NCBI RefSeq assembly: GCF_009937975.1
Contig: NZ_AP018441.1
Coordinates: 4,340,001-4,404,000 of the forward strand
Length of the DNA: 64,000 nucleotides
Source: Undibacterium sp. YM2
GTDB taxonomy: Bacteria > Pseudomonadota > Gammaproteobacteria > Burkholderiales > Burkholderiaceae_D
Reading direction: 5' to 3'
This document shows, in pieces, positions 22,254 through 49,748 of this stretch (positions are counted from its first letter, which is position 1; every line of letters starts with the position of its first letter). Made by a program: the position numbers and the translations under genes. The notes beneath the pieces are model-generated. The model searched no databases. It was not told the DNA's origin and saw nothing but the letters and a program-made list of their open reading frames with translations.

Positions 22254-22379
22254 GATGGTGTGGCTGGACGATCAGGGAGTAGCCATCTTATATTTGCTCT
22301 TTTATAGCGTCCAATATATATTTAAGGCGTTAGTAATACATTTTTTAGATGATTGGATAAGGAATAGTGATAGCTTCTC

Positions 22380-22480
22380 GTAGGTTGGGCTACGGGTTAT
22401 CAGCCCAACACTCGGCGCTTGAATAACGTATACGTTTGTTGAGGCCCAGTGTTGGGCTGATAACCCGTAGCCCAACCTAC
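22380..22480. repeat. 101-bp palindromic REP/BIME (GTAGGTTGGGCTACG family), copy 1
   Basis: Begins GTAGGTTGGGCTACGGGTTA and ends with the matching inverted sequence TAACCCGTAGCCCAACCTAC. The middle carries TCAGCCCAACACTCGGCG and CCAGTGTTGGGCTGA, so arms fold over most of the length, with ACGTATACGT at the centre. A second 101-bp copy is at 49565-49665. It lies between the divergent MFS and LysR genes and may separate their promoters. Confidence 0.85.
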
Positions 22481-23413: not shown

Positions 23414-23414
23414 G

Positions 23415-23695
23415 TAGAACTCATTTCATAAATAGGGATGAGTGCGAACAAGGCGATTTGGGATGCAGTGCAAGGCGTGGCCTGCAGCTAAGACTCATGC
23501 CTTAGCAAAGGAGGGGTGGCATACTACCCGCAGCAATGCACCCAAATCGTCAGTTCCCGAAGGGTTTGCCTCATAACGCACACCAGATAACATAGAATTT
23601 ATTTTTGATGATGCAAGCATTAACTGCCGTGTCCGCATTGCCATTTCGCGTTATGAGGCAAACGCACCTCATTCATATTTATGAAATGAGTTCTA
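23415..23695. mobile_element. MITE copy A, 277 bp with TA flanks
   Basis: The element (23417-23693) starts GAACTCATTTCATAAATA and ends with the exact inverted sequence TATTTATGAAATGAGTTC, flanked by TA on both sides, which fits a TA target duplication as used by IS630/Tc1-type transposases. Inside are perfect 14-bp inverted arms GTTTGCCTCATAAC (23564-23577) and GTTATGAGGCAAAC (23650-23663) around 72 bp. No transposase frame. A second copy in opposite orientation is at 42576-42844. Confidence 0.88.
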
Positions 23696-23728
23696 GCAAA
23701 CTGTCGCGGTGAAAATCGTAACACCAGC

Positions 23729-24400
23729 CTATTGCTCAGCAACCGGGCGAGCCGGATACAGCCAGCAAAACACCAGCGTCGCCACCGCCGCACCCAGCAA
23801 TTGCGCAATGATAAAACCCGGCGCATCGACAGGGCGTATGCCTGCAAAGCTATTACTGGCCGCCCGTGCCAGCGTCACTGCGGGGTTGGCAAATGAGGTT
23901 GAAGAGGTAAACCAGTATGCCGCCGTGATATAGGCCGCCACCGCAAATGGTGTCACCGCCGGGCGGCTGCGGCTGGTGCTGATGATGACCGCAATCAGGC
24001 CAAAGCTGGCGACAAACTCGCTCCACCATTGTGCCATGCCGGTACGCGCATGTTCAGATGCAAAGAACAGCGGCAGGTCAAACATGGCATGCGCCGTGGC
24101 TACCCCGGCAAAGGCGCCCAGCACTTGCAGCAGGATATACGGCAGCACATCCCTGGCTGGCAGGTTTTTTTGGTAAGCCTCAGACAATGTCACGACAGGG
24201 TTGAAGTGCGCACCCGAGACGGGGCCAAACATCAATATCAATGCGATCAGACCCGCGCCCGTGGCAATGGCATTGGCCAGCAGCGCAATCGCAACATTGC
24301 CGCCCGCCAGCCGCTCTGCCATGATGCCCGATCCCACCACGACAGCCAGCAACAAGGCGGTGCCCAGGCCTTCAGCCACCAGACGTCTTGCCATGCTCAT
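23729..24400 (-). CDS. Aquaporin/MIP family channel of the ars operon (AqpS-like)
   Basis: A 223-residue membrane channel with six predicted helices. The two pore half-helices carry HFNPVVTL (about 65-72) and FANPAVTLARAASNSF (about 170), the second a canonical NPA box and the first the NPV variant found in arsenic-associated and other short MIPs. Its ATG overlaps the arsC stop codon (ATGA), so the two are coupled. In Sinorhizobium, AqpS lets arsenite made by ArsC leave the cell down its gradient; the same job is inferred. No ArsB or Acr3 pump is present in this unit. Confidence 0.9.
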   Translation of the reverse strand: MSMARRLVAEGLGTALLLAVVVGSGIMAERLAGGNVAIALLANAIATGAGLIALILMFGPVSGAHFNPVVTLSEAYQKNLPARDVLPYILLQVLGAFAGVATAHAMFDLPLFFASEHARTGMAQWWSEFVASFGLIAVIISTSRSRPAVTPFAVAAYITAAYWFTSSTSFANPAVTLARAASNSFAGIRPVDAPGFIIAQLLGAAVATLVFCWLYPARPVAEQ

Positions 24401-24876
24401 GGGGTGATCTCGCCTATCTGGTCCAGCGCGGCCTTGAACTTTTGCCTGTCCTGCGCCAGGGTTTCCAGCGGCAGCGCAAGCATGGCCTCGATGCGGGCAC
24501 GCAGGATGCGGTAGGCAGTCATGAAGGCAGCGTCGAATTCTTCATCTGTCCCGCTGACATGGGCAGGGTCTGCCACACCCCAGTGGGTGCGCAACACTGG
24601 CCCCAGATAAGCCGGGCAGGTTTCACCCGCAGCACTGGCGCAGACGGTGATGACGATGTCCGGTGTGGCTGGCAGATTGTCCCATGATTTGCTGGCATAG
24701 CCCGTGGTCGAAATACCTTCCCGCGCCAGCAATGCCAGCGAACGCGGGTGTACTTCCCCCGTTGGCTTGCTACCCGCACTCATGGCATGCCAGCCTGCAG
24801 GGGCCAGATGATTGAAAGTGGCCTCACCGAGGATGGAACGGCAGGAATTGCCGGTACACAGAAACAAGACGTTCAT
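24397..24876 (-). CDS. arsC: Arsenate reductase ArsC (low-molecular-weight phosphatase type)
   Basis: A 159-residue cytosolic enzyme reducing arsenate to arsenite. The LMW phosphatase P-loop CTGNSCRS (Cys about 7 to Arg about 13) is at the N-terminus, and the redox cysteines VCASAAGETCPAY (about 80-90) mark the thioredoxin-dependent family. The C-terminal SWDNLPATPDIVITVC and DPAHVSGTDEEF regions match ArsC. It overlaps the aquaporin gene by 4 bp and follows arsR after 62 bp. Confidence 0.94.
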   Translation of the reverse strand: MNVLFLCTGNSCRSILGEATFNHLAPAGWHAMSAGSKPTGEVHPRSLALLAREGISTTGYASKSWDNLPATPDIVITVCASAAGETCPAYLGPVLRTHWGVADPAHVSGTDEEFDAAFMTAYRILRARIEAMLALPLETLAQDRQKFKAALDQIGEITP

Positions 24877-24938
24877 AAGTCACCAAAAATTGAAAACAGA
24901 AATAAAGAAAAAGCAGAAATCGCCTGCACTGCTATCGC

Positions 24939-25274
24939 TTATTCAGCGGCACATTGCTGCACCTGTACCGGCGTGCATGGATTGCCGCCACAGCAGTTTT
25001 CAGTCAAAAAGCCCAGCATCTGGTTCATCGTCGTGATATTCGCCGAGTAAATGACAAAGCGCCCCGCCTGGCGTGACTGCACCAACCCGGCATGCGACAA
25101 CTCTTTGAGATGAAACGACAAGGAAGAGGCAGGTATGCCCAGCTCTTCACCTATTTTGGTGGCGGCCCTGCCTTGCGGACCAGCCTGCACCAGCAGGCGG
25201 AACACCGCCAGGCGTGACTCTTGCGCCAGCGCGGCCAGTGCCAGTAATGCTGCTTTGGTTTCCATCATATCCAT
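24939..25274 (-). CDS. arsR: ArsR family arsenic-responsive repressor
   Basis: A 111-residue dimeric winged-helix repressor. Recognition helix region PASSLSFHLKELSHAGLV (about 49-66) and a C-terminal cysteine cluster ENCCGGNPC..QQC. Vicinal C-terminal cysteines are the As(III) site in the AfArsR/CgArsR type, so arsenite sensing through this tail is inferred. It begins the minus-strand unit arsR-arsC-aquaporin. An 11-bp inverted repeat just upstream is the probable operator. Confidence 0.92.
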   Translation of the reverse strand: MDMMETKAALLALAALAQESRLAVFRLLVQAGPQGRAATKIGEELGIPASSLSFHLKELSHAGLVQSRQAGRFVIYSANITTMNQMLGFLTENCCGGNPCTPVQVQQCAAE

Positions 25275-25295
25275 GTCCTTGCGATTATGAATAAA

Positions 25296-25327
25296 TTCTA
25301 TATTTCTATAATAATGGAAATATAGAA
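25296..25327. promoter_or_regulatory. Probable operator of the minus-strand arsR
   Basis: TTCTATATTTC (25296-25306) and GAAATATAGAA (25317-25327) form a perfect 11-bp inverted repeat with a 10-base gap, 22 bp upstream of the minus-strand arsR start. AT-rich dyads of this size are typical ArsR/SmtB binding sites. The sequence differs from the ATTCGT dyad used on the plus side. Confidence 0.75.
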
Positions 25328-25382
25328 TTACTGTAAAGCCGATTTTAAAAGAACTTGCATGCGGGGATTTTTGTGTTATTCT

Positions 25383-25404
25383 TTATTCGTCAATTAACGA
25401 ATAA
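25383..25404. promoter_or_regulatory. ATTCGT-N6-ACGAAT operator, copy 1
   Basis: TTATTCGT (25383-25390) and ACGAATAA (25397-25404) are a perfect 8-bp inverted repeat with a 6-base centre, ending 5 bp before the plus-strand arsR start. Its position over the start region suggests autorepression. The same 7-bp core recurs at 25745-25764. Confidence 0.8.
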
Positions 25405-25409
25405 GCCGT

Positions 25410-25724
25410 ATGTCCACCACTTGCTGCACGACTGAACCCGCCGTTCTGGAGATGAATTTCCAGCCAGAAGAGATTGCTGCGCTATGCAAGGCGCTGGGGC
25501 ATCCTGCGCGAGTCAAGCTGCTCAGGCACTTGTCCAATTATGGCGAATGTTTTTTTGGCAGCCTGACCGACATCCTGCCACTGGCAGCATCGACGATATC
25601 GCAGCATGTGAGCATACTCAAAGAAGCGGGCCTGATACTGGGCTCGGCTGACGAGCAACGTGTTTGCTATTGTGTCAATGAAGTACGTCTGGCGCAGTTC
25701 AAGAAGCTGGTAGCGGGTCTTTGA
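25410..25724 (+). CDS. arsR: ArsR family repressor, second copy
   Basis: A 104-residue winged-helix repressor only distantly related to the other ArsR. Helix-turn-helix LAASTISQHVSILKEAGLIL (about 58-77). Cysteines are at the N-terminus (TTCCTTEP) and inside (NYGECFFG), so a metalloid site different from the other regulator is inferred. It has its own ATTCGT dyad and a second dyad follows its stop codon, before the flavoprotein gene. Confidence 0.9.
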   Translation: MSTTCCTTEPAVLEMNFQPEEIAALCKALGHPARVKLLRHLSNYGECFFGSLTDILPLAASTISQHVSILKEAGLILGSADEQRVCYCVNEVRLAQFKKLVAGL

Positions 25725-25744
25725 GCTGGTTTTTTTTGCCTTTA

Positions 25745-25764
25745 TATTCGTATTTTGACGAATA
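25745..25764. promoter_or_regulatory. ATTCGT-N6-ACGAAT operator, copy 2
   Basis: TATTCGT (25745-25751) and ACGAATA (25758-25764) repeat the dyad in front of the plus-strand arsR with the same 6-base spacing. A further half-site ACGAAT follows at 25765-25770. It lies about 60 bp before the flavoprotein start, so the second ArsR probably represses the downstream genes from here as well. Confidence 0.8.
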
Positions 25765-25822
25765 ACGAATTAATATAGAAACACACTGATATAGTCCTCA
25801 TTGAAAATGATTGGAGATCATG

Positions 25823-27295
25823 ATGAAACCACAGACCAGCGCATTACCCATTGCCATCATCGGCGCCGGACCAGTCGGGCTGGCGGCAGCCGCGCACCTG
25901 CTCTTGCGCAGCCAGCAGCCACTGATACTGGAAAGCGCAGCAAGCATTGCCGCCAACCTCGCCAGTTATCGCCAGGTGCGCCTGTTTTCGCCATGGCGCT
26001 ACAATCTGGACCAGGCTGCAGTCAGCTTGCTGACAGCGTCAGGCTGGCAGCAGCCTGATCCTGAAGGCTTGCCAACTGCCGGGGAGATGATAGACCACTA
26101 CCTGCAGCCACTTGCCCAGCTACCCGCCATCGCAGCAAGTCTGCACCTGCAACACCGTGTCATCGCCGTCAGCAGGCAATCTTACGACAAGGTCAAGACC
26201 AAAGGGCGGGAAGACGCCGCCTTTGTCTTGCGGGTAGCAACACCAGAGGGCGAACGGGATTACCTCGCCAGCGCCATTATCGATGCCAGCGGCACCTGGT
26301 CGCAACCCAACCCGCTGGGAGCGAATGGCATACCCGCCATCGGTGAAGAGCAATATGCAGCCCACATCAGCTACGGAATGCCCGACATACTTGGCACACA
26401 GCGCCAGCGTTTTGCTGGCAAACGGGTGCTGGTCGTGGGCACCGGGCATTCAGCCGCAGGCAACCTGCTGGCGCTGGCACAACTGGCAGAACAAGTGCCG
26501 GGTACCACCCTGCTGTGGGCAATCCGGGGCAATCATGTTGCCAAGGTATTTGGCGGCGGCAGTGCCGATGGCCTGCCAGCACGGGGGCAGCTTGGTGCCC
26601 GCCTGAAGGCCTTGAAGGATACTGGCCAGCTCAGTCTGTACCGCAATTTCAGGATACGGCAATTGCAGTCTGGCGAGCATGGCGAAGATGGCATCACCGT
26701 CACAGGCGACATGCATCTGGGTGAAACACCTGTCCTTTCCGGCATAGATGAAATCATCGCCGCCACCGGGGCCAGGCCCGACCTTAGCCTCAGCCGTGAA
26801 TTGCGCCTGCGCCATGACCCCTGGCTGGAAAGCACAGAAGCACTCGCGCCACTGATCGACCCTAATGAACATAGCTGCGGCACGGTGCGCCCGCATGGCC
26901 ACCGCGAGCTGGCCCACCCTGAGCCGGGCTACTATGCCGTGGGAGCCAAGAGCTATGGTCGCGCCCCCAACTTTCTGATGGCGACAGGGTATGAACAGGT
27001 GCGCTCCGTAGTTGCCGCATTGTCGGGCGACCTGGCTGCCGCCGACGAGGTACAGTTAAGCCTGCCGCAAACCGGCATCTGCAGCACACAGCCGGTCTAT
27101 GAATTACCTGAGAAAGAAGAACCGGCCGCATGCTGTGGCGGCGCTGCACCGGCAGGTGCAAACGCCTGTTGCGCACTCGATGCCACTGAAAAAGCCAAAG
27201 GAAATGCGGGTTGTGGATGCAGTACACAAAGCGAGACGCCAGCAATGCCAACGCTAAGCAAGCCAGCAGCAAGCAAGCCAAATTGCTGCTCTTGA
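25823..27295 (+). CDS. FAD/NAD(P)-dependent oxidoreductase with cysteine-rich tail, arsenic island
   Basis: A flavoprotein of about 490 residues. N-terminal FAD motif AIIGAGPVGLAAAAHLL, a second dinucleotide motif VLVVGTGHSAAGNLLAL (about 200) and an IDEIIAATGARPDLSL motif (about 310), as in flavin monooxygenase-like proteins such as ArsO. The last 60 residues form a low-complexity tail with nine cysteines, including ACCGG, ACCAL, GCGCS and NCCS. Pairs of this kind can bind As(III). ATG 25823 is chosen because GGAG lies 6 bases upstream. The MFS gene follows after 19 bp. The reaction is unknown; oxidation or reduction of an organoarsenical is an inference from context. Confidence 0.82.
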   Translation: MKPQTSALPIAIIGAGPVGLAAAAHLLLRSQQPLILESAASIAANLASYRQVRLFSPWRYNLDQAAVSLLTASGWQQPDPEGLPTAGEMIDHYLQPLAQLPAIAASLHLQHRVIAVSRQSYDKVKTKGREDAAFVLRVATPEGERDYLASAIIDASGTWSQPNPLGANGIPAIGEEQYAAHISYGMPDILGTQRQRFAGKRVLVVGTGHSAAGNLLALAQLAEQVPGTTLLWAIRGNHVAKVFGGGSADGLPARGQLGARLKALKDTGQLSLYRNFRIRQLQSGEHGEDGITVTGDMHLGETPVLSGIDEIIAATGARPDLSLSRELRLRHDPWLESTEALAPLIDPNEHSCGTVRPHGHRELAHPEPGYYAVGAKSYGRAPNFLMATGYEQVRSVVAALSGDLAAADEVQLSLPQTGICSTQPVYELPEKEEPAACCGGAAPAGANACCALDATEKAKGNAGCGCSTQSETPAMPTLSKPAASKPNCCS

Positions 27296-27314
27296 GATTT
27301 GCAGGTACCTATCG

Positions 27315-28529
27315 ATGAACCAGCAGCTACTGACCAGAAAAACCATCGCCATCCTGGGTTTTACCCAAATCGCCTCCTGGGGGTCGCTGTACTATGCCAT
27401 CGCCATCCTGGCACCGTCCATCCAGCAAGAAATGGGCTGGTCATCTGGCACCGTGTTTGGTGCTTTCTCCTGGAGCCTGCTGGTGGCCGGGCTGGCCTCC
27501 ACTCCAGTGGGCATGCTGCTCGACCGGCATGGCGGGCGGCTGGTGATGGCCAGCGGCTCTTTGCTGTGCGCTGCAGGCATGGTCTTGCTGAGCATGGCAC
27601 AGGCCAAGGCTGTGTATTTCATGGCCTGGACACTGCTGGGGCTGGGAATGGCGCTAAGCCTGTATGAAGCCGCCTTCGCAACCATCAACCGCATGATACT
27701 GGCGAACAGCCGTCAGGCCATCTCTACCCTGACACTGTTCGGTGGCTTTGCCAGCACCGTGTTCTGGCCGCTGACCTTAAAGCTCAACAGCCTGCTGGGC
27801 TGGCGTGACACCTACCTGCTGTATGGCATGCTGCAATTGTGCCTGTGCCTGCCGCTGCACCTGATGCTGGGTACCGCCAAAGCCAGCAACACACCAGACA
27901 GCGCGCACGGCCAGACCTCACTGGCAAGACCTGGCCATACCCTGGCCGAAGCCCTGCGCCATCCGGCATTCTGGAAACTGGCGCTGGCCTTTTGTGCGAA
28001 CAGCTTTGTGTTTTCTACGCTCTCGGTCCACCTCATCCCCTTGCTGGGCCAGTTTGGTCATGCCAGCGCCTGGGTAGTCATGATGGCCGCCTTCATCGGC
28101 CCCATGCAAGTCGCTGGCCGCCTCGGTGAAATGACGTTTGCCAGACATGCCTTGCCACAGACCGTCGGCAAATGGGTGTTCACCGCCCTGCCCGCGGCCT
28201 TGCTGGTGCTGATGTCATTTGGTACGCAAGCATGGGCAGTCGCCCTGTTCTGCCTGCTGTACGGCCTCAGCAACGGCATCCTGACGATAGTGCGCGGAAC
28301 AATACCGCAAGCCCTGTTCGGGCGGGATAACTATGGTGCGATTTCCGGTGCGCTGGCTGGCCCCTCGCTGCTATCCAAAGCTGCAGGCCCACTTGCGATG
28401 GCTGTCGTGGCGCAAGATTCCACAACACCTTACCCGTTTCTGCTGATACTCTTGCTGTTTACCCTCGCCTCACTGGCATTTTACCTGGCCGCAGTCAGGC
28501 AGCAAGCAGTGAGCCTGGAAGCCAGCTAA
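27315..28529 (+). CDS. MFS transporter, arsenic island
   Basis: A 404-residue inner-membrane MFS protein with twelve predicted helices (first helix FTQIASWGSLYYAIAIL; loop 2-3 DRHGGRLVMASGSLL). The IASWGSLYY helix is typical of a subgroup of MFS exporters often found in ars clusters. It sits between the flavoprotein and an ArsN1-type acetyltransferase, so export of an arsenical (an ArsK- or ArsJ-like job) is inferred. No specific residue proves this. Confidence 0.85.
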   Translation: MNQQLLTRKTIAILGFTQIASWGSLYYAIAILAPSIQQEMGWSSGTVFGAFSWSLLVAGLASTPVGMLLDRHGGRLVMASGSLLCAAGMVLLSMAQAKAVYFMAWTLLGLGMALSLYEAAFATINRMILANSRQAISTLTLFGGFASTVFWPLTLKLNSLLGWRDTYLLYGMLQLCLCLPLHLMLGTAKASNTPDSAHGQTSLARPGHTLAEALRHPAFWKLALAFCANSFVFSTLSVHLIPLLGQFGHASAWVVMMAAFIGPMQVAGRLGEMTFARHALPQTVGKWVFTALPAALLVLMSFGTQAWAVALFCLLYGLSNGILTIVRGTIPQALFGRDNYGAISGALAGPSLLSKAAGPLAMAVVAQDSTTPYPFLLILLLFTLASLAFYLAAVRQQAVSLEAS

Positions 28530-28549
28530 ACCCACTCAAGTCCAGCACC

Positions 28550-29035
28550 ATGATACGAACAGCCACCGCCGCCGACGCCGCCGCCATCATCAACATCTAC
28601 AACCACTACATCGCCACGACCACCATCAGCTTTGAAGAAAACCCGGTCACAGAACAGGAGATGGCCCAGCGCATCAAGGATGTCAGCGCCAGCCTGCCCT
28701 GGTATGTAGAAGAACAGGATGGCGTAGTCATCGGCTATGCCTATGCCACTCCATGGCGGGCCCGCAGCGCCTACCGGTTTTCAGTAGAAAGCACGGTGTA
28801 TGTCGCCACCAGCCATGAAGGCCAGGGCATAGGCAAGCGCCTGTATCAAACCCTGATAGCCGACCTGCGCCAGCGCGGCATCCACGTCATCATAGGCGGC
28901 ATCGCCCAACCCAACGCCGCCAGCGTCGCCCTGCATGAAAGCCTGGGTTTCGAGAAAGTCGCCCACTTCAAGGACGTAGGGCGCAAGTTTGAACAATGGG
29001 TGGATGTAGGATATTGGGAATTGCAGTTGAATTGA
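28550..29035 (+). CDS. arsN1: GNAT acetyltransferase, arsinothricin/phosphinothricin resistance type (ArsN1-like)
   Basis: A 161-residue GNAT enzyme. IRTATAADAAAIINIYNHYI and TTISFEENPVTEQEM at the N-terminus, GYAYATPWRARSAYRFSVES in the middle, the acetyl-CoA loop GQGIGKRLYQ (about 91-100) and NAASVALHESLGF near the end match PAT/ArsN1 proteins. ArsN1 acetylates the amine of arsinothricin, a glutamate-mimic organoarsenical antibiotic; PAT does the same with phosphinothricin. Location in an arsenic operon favours the former. The next GNAT starts 4 bp later. Confidence 0.85.
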   Translation: MIRTATAADAAAIINIYNHYIATTTISFEENPVTEQEMAQRIKDVSASLPWYVEEQDGVVIGYAYATPWRARSAYRFSVESTVYVATSHEGQGIGKRLYQTLIADLRQRGIHVIIGGIAQPNAASVALHESLGFEKVAHFKDVGRKFEQWVDVGYWELQLN

Positions 29036-29039
29036 GCAC

Positions 29040-29543
29040 ATGAAGACAAACTGGATCATACGCCCGGCGACACCATCAGATATCGCCATCATCACCCGCC
29101 AGCGCTTCCACCGGGAAGACGAACGGCAAGAAGACCTGGATGCCTATGCAAACTGGCTGACAGGCACGCTGGCTGCCGGCAATTACCTGGGTTTGCTGGC
29201 CCAGGCCGGAGACACAGTCGTCGCTGGTGCAGGCCTCTCCATACTGGATTGGGGACCAATACGCGGCGATACACAGGCCCGTCGCGGCAGGATAGTCAAT
29301 GTGTATACCGCACCAGACTGGCGCAGGCTGGGCATTGCCAGGGCACTGGTCGCAGGCATGCTGCAACTGGGCAAGGAGCAAGGCCTGAACACCTTCAATC
29401 TGAGTGCCTCAGAAGAAGGCCAGCCACTGTACCGGGACCTGGGTTTTGTTTCTTATGCGGCGGAGATGATATACAGGTCAGGAACAGGTCAGGAAAACAA
29501 GAGAGTTAGTACAGGTGGTCAACATCATTCTGGACGTCCTTGA
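29040..29543 (+). CDS. GNAT family N-acetyltransferase
   Basis: A 167-residue GNAT protein distinct from the ArsN1-like one: IRPATPSDIAIITRQRFHRE, VYTAPDWRRLGIARALVAGML (acetyl-CoA loop about 95-105) and FNLSASEEGQPLYRDLGF. It starts 4 bp after the ArsN1-like stop codon, so it is in the same operon. The substrate is unknown; its place in an arsenic unit is notable. Confidence 0.87.
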   Translation: MKTNWIIRPATPSDIAIITRQRFHREDERQEDLDAYANWLTGTLAAGNYLGLLAQAGDTVVAGAGLSILDWGPIRGDTQARRGRIVNVYTAPDWRRLGIARALVAGMLQLGKEQGLNTFNLSASEEGQPLYRDLGFVSYAAEMIYRSGTGQENKRVSTGGQHHSGRP

Positions 29544-49504: not shown

Positions 49505-49564
49505 GTTGGGTGTCCTTTTGAAATTGGTTTGATGAGAAATTTTTTCTTGCAGCTTGCAATTGTC

Positions 49565-49665
49565 GTAGGTTGGGCTACGCCTCATCAGCCCAACACTCGG
49601 CGTTTCAATGACGTATACGTTTGCTTAGGCTCAGTGTTGGGCTGGTAAAGCGTAGCCCAACCTAC
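49565..49665. repeat. 101-bp palindromic REP/BIME, copy 2
   Basis: Same family and same length as the copy at 22380-22480: GTAGGTTGGGCTACG at the start, CGTAGCCCAACCTAC at the end, with GACGTATACGTTTG in the centre. The inner stem differs (GCCTCATC against GGTAAAGC). It lies between the tautomerase and DUF4865 genes and may split their transcript. Confidence 0.85.
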
Positions 49666-49748
49666 GAAACTGTGTCTCTGTGCCTCTGTGTTGAGAGGTC
49701 TTGAAGTTGCTCCGGTTTAAGCGGCCCAACCTGCGTCATTGCAAAACC

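Follow-up and report, generated by a model that had tools for sequence, protein, structure and literature searches.

How can a single ArsR-family repressor control both its own gene and the genes that follow it? The question is raised by an arsenic island in Undibacterium sp. YM2, analysed here within a window of 64,000 nucleotides (bases 4340001-4404000 of contig 1, in a genome of 6.66 Mb). Two copies of one dyad, O1 and O2, lie before arsR2 and before the flavoprotein gene that comes next on the plus strand. The island is best explained as two divergent units, of which the plus-strand unit would be controlled by ArsR2 and directed at trivalent arsenicals, by flavin-dependent oxidation, ArsK-like export and arsinothricin acetylation; this explanation, taken as a whole, is held with moderate confidence. 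The twin operators, the gene order and the protein families are those indicated by the sequence and its comparison with relatives. The order of the plus-strand genes is arsR2, flavoprotein, major facilitator superfamily (MFS) transporter, ArsN1b and GNAT2, with intergenic gaps of 98, 19, 20 and 4 bp. The features are:

25355..25382, plus strand: putative arsR2 promoter, TTGCAT-16 nt-TATTCT (7/12 in the window; a strong TTGAC-type promoter stands here in relatives)
25385..25402, no strand: predicted operator O1 of ArsR2, exact ATTCGT-N6-ACGAAT, from comparison across loci
25410..25724, plus strand: arsR2, ArsR-family repressor with Cys5-Cys6 and Cys47 (61.7 bits, cut-off 55; alignment with 6j0e; conservation of the cysteines)
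25730..25737, plus strand: T-run, eight consecutive T separated from O2 by 8 nt, retained in most relatives
25746..25763, no strand: predicted operator O2 of ArsR2, exact dyad, with a third ACGAAT half-site just after it (25765-25770)
25823..27295, plus strand: flavoprotein of NAD(P)H- and FAD-type, 490 aa, with a Cys-rich tail (profile and fold-model matches)
27315..28529, plus strand: MFS transporter, ArsK-like (279.9 bits, below the ArsK cut-off of 400)
28550..29035, plus strand: ArsN1b, arsinothricin N-acetyltransferase of ArsN1 family B (243.1 bits, cut-off 210)
29040..29543, plus strand: GNAT2, unnamed acetyltransferase beside ArsN1b, a doubtful member of the unit (no arsenic-family match; comparison with relatives)

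The initial annotation had described perfect twin dyads of equal spacing before arsR2 and the flavoprotein gene, and this observation is confirmed. Both are exact with N6 spacers, are 361 bp apart and have no third copy in the genome. Their wider coordinates in that annotation, 25383-25404 and 25745-25764, correspond to extended arms of 11 nt (91% complementary) and 7 nt (100%) respectively. At up to two mismatches O1 and O2 are the only sites in the window; shuffles of the window average 1.61, so the motif is not rare by window statistics alone, and its rarity rests on the two exact copies with none elsewhere in the genome. Four of 43 Undibacterium-genus genomes carry the flavoprotein (G000, the present genome, and G063, G004 and G065), and each has exactly two exact dyads, all at the arsenic locus. 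The remaining 39 have 19 scattered exact dyads spread over 16 genomes. A bare dyad is thus expected by chance about once in two genomes, and it is the pairing that counts. The exact dyad is absent from G034, a genome without the arsenic block.

The comparison was extended to a further 20 loci that carry an ArsR2-type gene (255,827 bases, with L011 omitted because it duplicates L010 on the same contig, and L081 and L082 because they come from the present genome). These contain 34 sites at up to one mismatch, 33 of which are located upstream of arsR2 or the flavoprotein gene by a fixed rule. The other (L003:5505) lies just outside the rule and precedes a longer frame, with an ArsN2-like GNAT ahead of the flavoprotein; one locus, L013, has no site at this threshold. 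For sixty permuted dyads the mean over the same loci was 0.37 sites and the maximum 3. Given this clustering, O1 and O2 are very likely both operators of ArsR2, on sequence grounds. Where arsR2 stands directly before the flavoprotein gene, both sites (at up to two mismatches) are present in 19/19 loci, comprising 16 of 16 in a set that counts the window and its near-identical sister L127, and three of three further loci. The proposal that a single ArsR uses the twin dyads to control its own gene as well as those downstream is thereby upheld, as a prediction from these comparisons. Among loci where arsR2 follows the MFS gene, both sites occur in eight of 14 (a count from which L154, with two sites and no ArsR2 match, is left out), one site in five and none in one, so that six lack the pair. 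In four loci of this arrangement O1 and O2 are 61-93 bp apart, ahead of the flavoprotein gene.

Three divergent genes on the minus strand (arsR1, arsC-like and aquaporin; 23729-25274), overlooked in the initial annotation, are members of the same island. Their features are:

23729..24400, minus strand: aquaglyceroporin-like MIP channel, the final gene in the divergent unit (Pfam MIP, 93.7 bits; adjoins ArsC in many relatives)
24397..24876, minus strand: ArsC-like protein of the low-molecular-weight phosphatase type (LMWPc domain; best NCBIfam model arsC_pI258, 71.8 bits)
24939..25274, minus strand: ArsR1, AfArsR-like repressor with Cys94, Cys95, Cys100 and Cys108 (62.3 bits, cut-off 55)
25294..25329, no strand: dyad before arsR1, with 16-nt arms, 94% complementary, and 4 nt between

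The ArsC-like protein falls below the cut-off for thioredoxin-type ArsC (TIGR02691; 71.8 against 174.3 bits). Both repressors pass the ArsR/SmtB model NF033788, with the scores listed. ArsR1 aligns with 6j05 (AfArsR), ENCC included; Cys94-Cys95 match the CC pair, and Cys100 falls beyond the alignment, closer to this pair by one residue than its AfArsR counterpart. ArsR2 is weakly similar to 6j0e ('Arsenic responsive repressor ArsR'), which we take to be CgArsR, and the N-terminal CC pairs (Cys5-Cys6 in ArsR2) are aligned. Cys47 is near the third cysteine of the CgArsR type, and is not aligned with it. Among 21 ArsR2 sequences CC is found in 20 (HC in L085) and Cys47 in all. The As(III) sites are described in PMC8470949 as the C-terminal trio Cys95, Cys96 and Cys102 in AfArsR, and Cys15 and Cys16 with Cys55 of the other subunit in CgArsR. 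The dyad before arsR1 differs in sequence from those of ArsR2, so the island combines two adjacent sensors with two different operator sequences.

If O1 lies at the arsR2 promoter, what is the function of O2? Upstream of O1 the relatives have a TTGAC-type -35 element and a -10 element such as TATTCT, and the promoter score averages 9.48 out of 12 over 21 loci (shuffles 6.80, maximum 7.29), the window itself scoring 7. O2 could be the operator of a separate second promoter, with arsR2 and the flavoprotein operon as independent transcripts under one repressor; this is the picture implicit in the initial annotation and a serious possibility, though one short of probable. TTGAGC-16-TATATT (9/12) abuts O2 in the window, and hairpin-plus-T terminators judged convincing precede O2 in L012, L016, L041 and L085, where a later start would be required. 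The mean score at O2 over 20 loci is however only 6.65, no better than shuffled sequences (6.47, range 5.9 to 7.05), and eight of the 14 loci with arsR2 behind the MFS gene keep O2 after O1, four of them scoring only 4 to 7 at O2.

The junction between arsR and the flavoprotein gene has a further feature. A T-run of at least six, within 70 nt after the arsR stop, is found in 32 of 36 junctions (14 ArsR2, 19 alphaproteobacterial and three of Bacillota type). Of 482 further long reading frames in the same loci, which served as the control, five have one; these frames were called mechanically, and some are surely not genes. In all 29 ArsR2 and alphaproteobacterial junctions with a T-run, a loosely defined half-site begins 7-10 nt after it. 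In six of six loci where arsR2 follows the MFS gene, its stop is without such a T-run. A plain intrinsic terminator is rejected, since hairpins beside the T-run reach the score limit in seven of 33 junctions where shuffles expect 5.28, the four convincing cases notwithstanding. A literature search, with most subscription journals outside its coverage, turned up no paper recognisable as a description of this junction of T-run and second operator, and we regard the T-run shortly before O2 as a new observation.

With the T-run mostly lacking a hairpin, a weak promoter score at O2 and a layout shared between loci, the junction sequences favour a gate on read-through. Tentatively, O2 may therefore be a natural elongation gate and no promoter operator: ArsR2 bound at O2 would stop polymerase that has got past O1 and would hold the polymerase active site at the T-run, where by this geometry release should be easiest. 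It is conceivable that the repressor would then be kept at a leaky level, with the enzyme and pump silent until arsenic frees O2. The layout of operator, T-run and operator may have been reached more than once, because it is seen with other types of ArsR and other operators, clearly in L066 and L067, two Paenibacillus loci related to each other, where a different dyad stands ahead of arsR and recurs in the junction, and in part in Alphaproteobacteria. The alphaproteobacterial loci examined (L086 and L133 not among them) have another ArsR type and the operator ATTTC-N10-GAAAT, exact upstream in 15 of 19.

Several observations weigh against the gate. The pair of sites is lacking in six of the 14 loci with arsR2 behind the MFS gene. 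In the 19 alphaproteobacterial loci the best junction match has 2 to 4 mismatches over 10 positions; in several loci it is not even the element after the T-run, and matches at up to three mismatches number 18 to 42 per locus. Three loci with arsR2 upstream that were not used to frame the idea (from a set in which 14 of 26 were dropped as duplicates, with >95% identity over >900 bases) support it in part only: a T-run of six is present in L140 alone, L147 has five T after six A, and L141 three T after seven A. The conserved feature may thus be an A/T tract rather than a U-tract in the RNA.

A similar arrangement has been built deliberately. A second ArsR site after arsR lowers the background of engineered arsenic bioreporters, as given in PMC3918153, and E. 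coli ArsR is listed among road-block proteins in PMC10310618. The bioreporters share the order of operator, arsR, second operator and output gene; they are man-made with E. coli ArsR, whereas the Undibacterium layout is natural and includes a T-run whose spacing to the second site is nearly constant. Should O2 prove to be a gate, the device that engineers built into arsenic biosensors to reduce background would exist in nature as well. The widely shared regulatory layout, with one ArsR, two operators and a T-run between, is concrete and testable.

How might the island work? The minus-strand unit (ArsR1, the ArsC-like protein and aquaporin) would handle arsenate and arsenite. ArsR2 would bind O1, just downstream of its own -10 element, and O2, just before the flavoprotein gene, and a trivalent arsenical, the presumed ligand, caught by its cysteines would free both; arsR2 and the downstream genes may share a transcript. 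The flavoprotein would take a trivalent (organo)arsenical or antimonial, perhaps via its Cys-rich tail, and probably oxidise rather than reduce it. The ArsK-like MFS protein would export arsenicals, and ArsN1b would acetylate, and so inactivate, the antibiotic arsinothricin.

The flavoprotein is indeed Cys-tailed, as initially annotated, with eight of its ten cysteines within residues 437-489. The tail has no match in NCBIfam or Pfam. ArsO (NF040505), which is likewise a flavin enzyme of ars operons, is the best curated match, if a weak one at 43.8 bits (cut-off 425), over residues 14-228 of a 494-aa reading. The closest solved structure by sequence is 4usr, a monooxygenase. The predicted structure (pLDDT 84.6) matches folds of FAD- and NADPH-type enzymes; none of the 50 fold matches listed is titled ArsO or ArsV, which is uninformative. 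Mercuric reductase has a vicinal Cys tail, and the flavoprotein might by analogy be a thiol-disulfide reductase, freeing arsenic or restoring arsenic-damaged thiols, and no oxidase. The bacillithiol disulfide reductase YpdA is the top fold match, yet its model (TIGR04018) gives 27.6 bits against a cut-off of 339.9, CxxC is absent, the body has only Cys352 and Cys420, and the best sequence matches are to ArsO and a monooxygenase. We consider a reductase unlikely.

Among the matches listed, the nearest flavoprotein is that of Undibacterium hunanense CY18W (L001, 80%), and the family extends to Pseudomonadota, Actinomycetota, Bacillota, Bacteroidota and others. A close flavoprotein (E <=1e-150) occurs in 40 genomes of a 392-genome draw of the bacterial family. 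In most of the plasmid records listed its only name is 'NAD(P)-binding' or 'FAD-dependent' protein. It is found near arsR, with a reduced Cys tail, on the Staphylococcus plasmids L083 and L084 (one from poultry litter, one from chicken), and in L084 also near mer genes and erm(B).

The initial annotation had proposed a search of gene neighbourhoods. The best 80 of 551 confirmed flavoprotein matches, from named genomes, were taken as loci; the counts follow our own BLAST thresholds, some loci have incomplete flanks, and the duplicated pair L010 and L011, which share a contig, counts as two. ArsR is present in the flanks of 67, ArsC in 56, MFS in 54, a MIP channel in 22, ArsH in 20, Acr3 in 19, ArsN1 in 16, an ArsO-like protein in 13, and ArsN2, near or fused, in six. 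The flavoprotein thus co-occurs with arsR, and with an MFS gene, as the proposal had it, so that the proposal withstands the neighbourhood test set for it in the initial annotation. At least one listed arsenic feature is present in 76 loci (none in L056, L061, L069 and L071), which points to a broad flavoprotein family mostly near arsR, ArsK-like or other arsenic genes. The ArsN1-type and ArsN2 counts lend some weight to a possible organoarsenical role.

The MFS protein has the arsenite pump ArsK (NF033733) as its best curated match, without reaching the cut-off, and ArsK is also the best model for seven of eight other flavoprotein-linked MFS proteins scanned. The absence of ArsB and Acr3 noted initially is correct and genome-wide. 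The argument drawn from it, that a unit without a pump must serve an organoarsenical, fails because the MFS protein is itself ArsK-like; a pumpless unit is rejected for the same reason. The arsinothricin permease ArsQ is also rejected, as the transporter is MFS_1 and ArsQ is annotated as related to the GntP gluconate permease (PMC8552651). ArsH is likewise absent from the unit, as initially noted. A homologue lies ~0.73 Mb away (L161, G000:C1:5094400-5096200); it matches in two pieces with ~250 bp between, and may be interrupted.

ArsN1b is a genuine ArsN1-like enzyme, as first proposed, passing the model for family B (NF040504), and ArsN1 is reported to acetylate arsinothricin (PMC6465285). 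GNAT2 matches no arsenic family. It is not ArsN2, having no NF040501 match at E 0.001 (cut-off 125) and no significant similarity to the ArsN2-bearing P0093. It is found in none of the 80 loci at the threshold used, and the full gene set is repeated only in the near-identical sister genome G063; in G004 and G065 the MFS gene is followed by ArsN1b with no GNAT2 alongside. Homology between G034 and the window extends to 23413, is missing over 23414-28534 and picks up again at 28535, covering ArsN1b and GNAT2 as far as 29484. G034 therefore lacks the block from arsC to MFS and retains GNAT2 beside ArsN1b. Loss of the block from G034 is the simpler reading, the alternative being an insertion; under either, the acetyltransferase pair can stand alone. 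The idea of two acetyltransferases as parts of one unit is accordingly rejected.

A dedicated resistance operon for arsinothricin or another organoarsenical, in which each of two acetyltransferases would serve its own position or substrate as initially suggested, is improbable: ArsN1b passes its cut-off, ArsN1 relatives adjoin the flavoprotein in Cytobacillus, where the protein is named ArsN1 family A, and in Catellatospora and Ensifer, where the scores stay below the cut-offs, and ArsN2 is fused to it in Oxalobacteraceae, but GNAT2 is not conserved with the unit, ArsN1 occurs in only 16 of the 80 loci, and the ArsK-like pump and neighbouring ArsC-like and aquaporin genes suit inorganic arsenic equally. 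The Oxalobacteraceae fusion (L003, L012, L016), an ArsN2-type acetyltransferase ahead of the flavoprotein (P0093), is a natural link of two activities.

Among known systems, the arsR-flavoprotein-arsK units of Rhizobiaceae (Rhizobium plasmid L086, Ensifer plasmids L133 and L134) have the same gene order. The MFS proteins of L086 and L133 exceed the ArsK cut-off (635.9 and 513 bits), and the neighbours differ, being acr3, arsC and arsH in L086 and aio and pst genes in the Ensifer plasmids. In these Ensifer adhaerens plasmids the unit is located between arsenite-oxidase-type and pho/pst genes, with a GNAT directly before arsR that in L133 is ArsN1b-like (137.7 bits, under the cut-off). ArsV, a flavin monooxygenase for organoarsenicals and antimonite, and ArsW, for methylarsenate export, are described in PMC10080717 and in titles cited by PMC11719878. 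Their logic of flavin enzyme plus transporter is shared with the Undibacterium unit, a likeness by description only; ArsN1b and twin operators are not mentioned for ArsV/ArsW in the available parts of these two sources.

A palindromic element of ~103 bp is located at 22378-22480 and 49563-49667, with 79 matches in the genome on both strands. As RNA it would fold with -70.9 kcal/mol (z -10.0), and it looks like a dispersed repeat of the repetitive extragenic palindromic (REP) or miniature inverted-repeat transposable element (MITE) type. One copy lies beside the LysR gene that adjoins the arsenic island.

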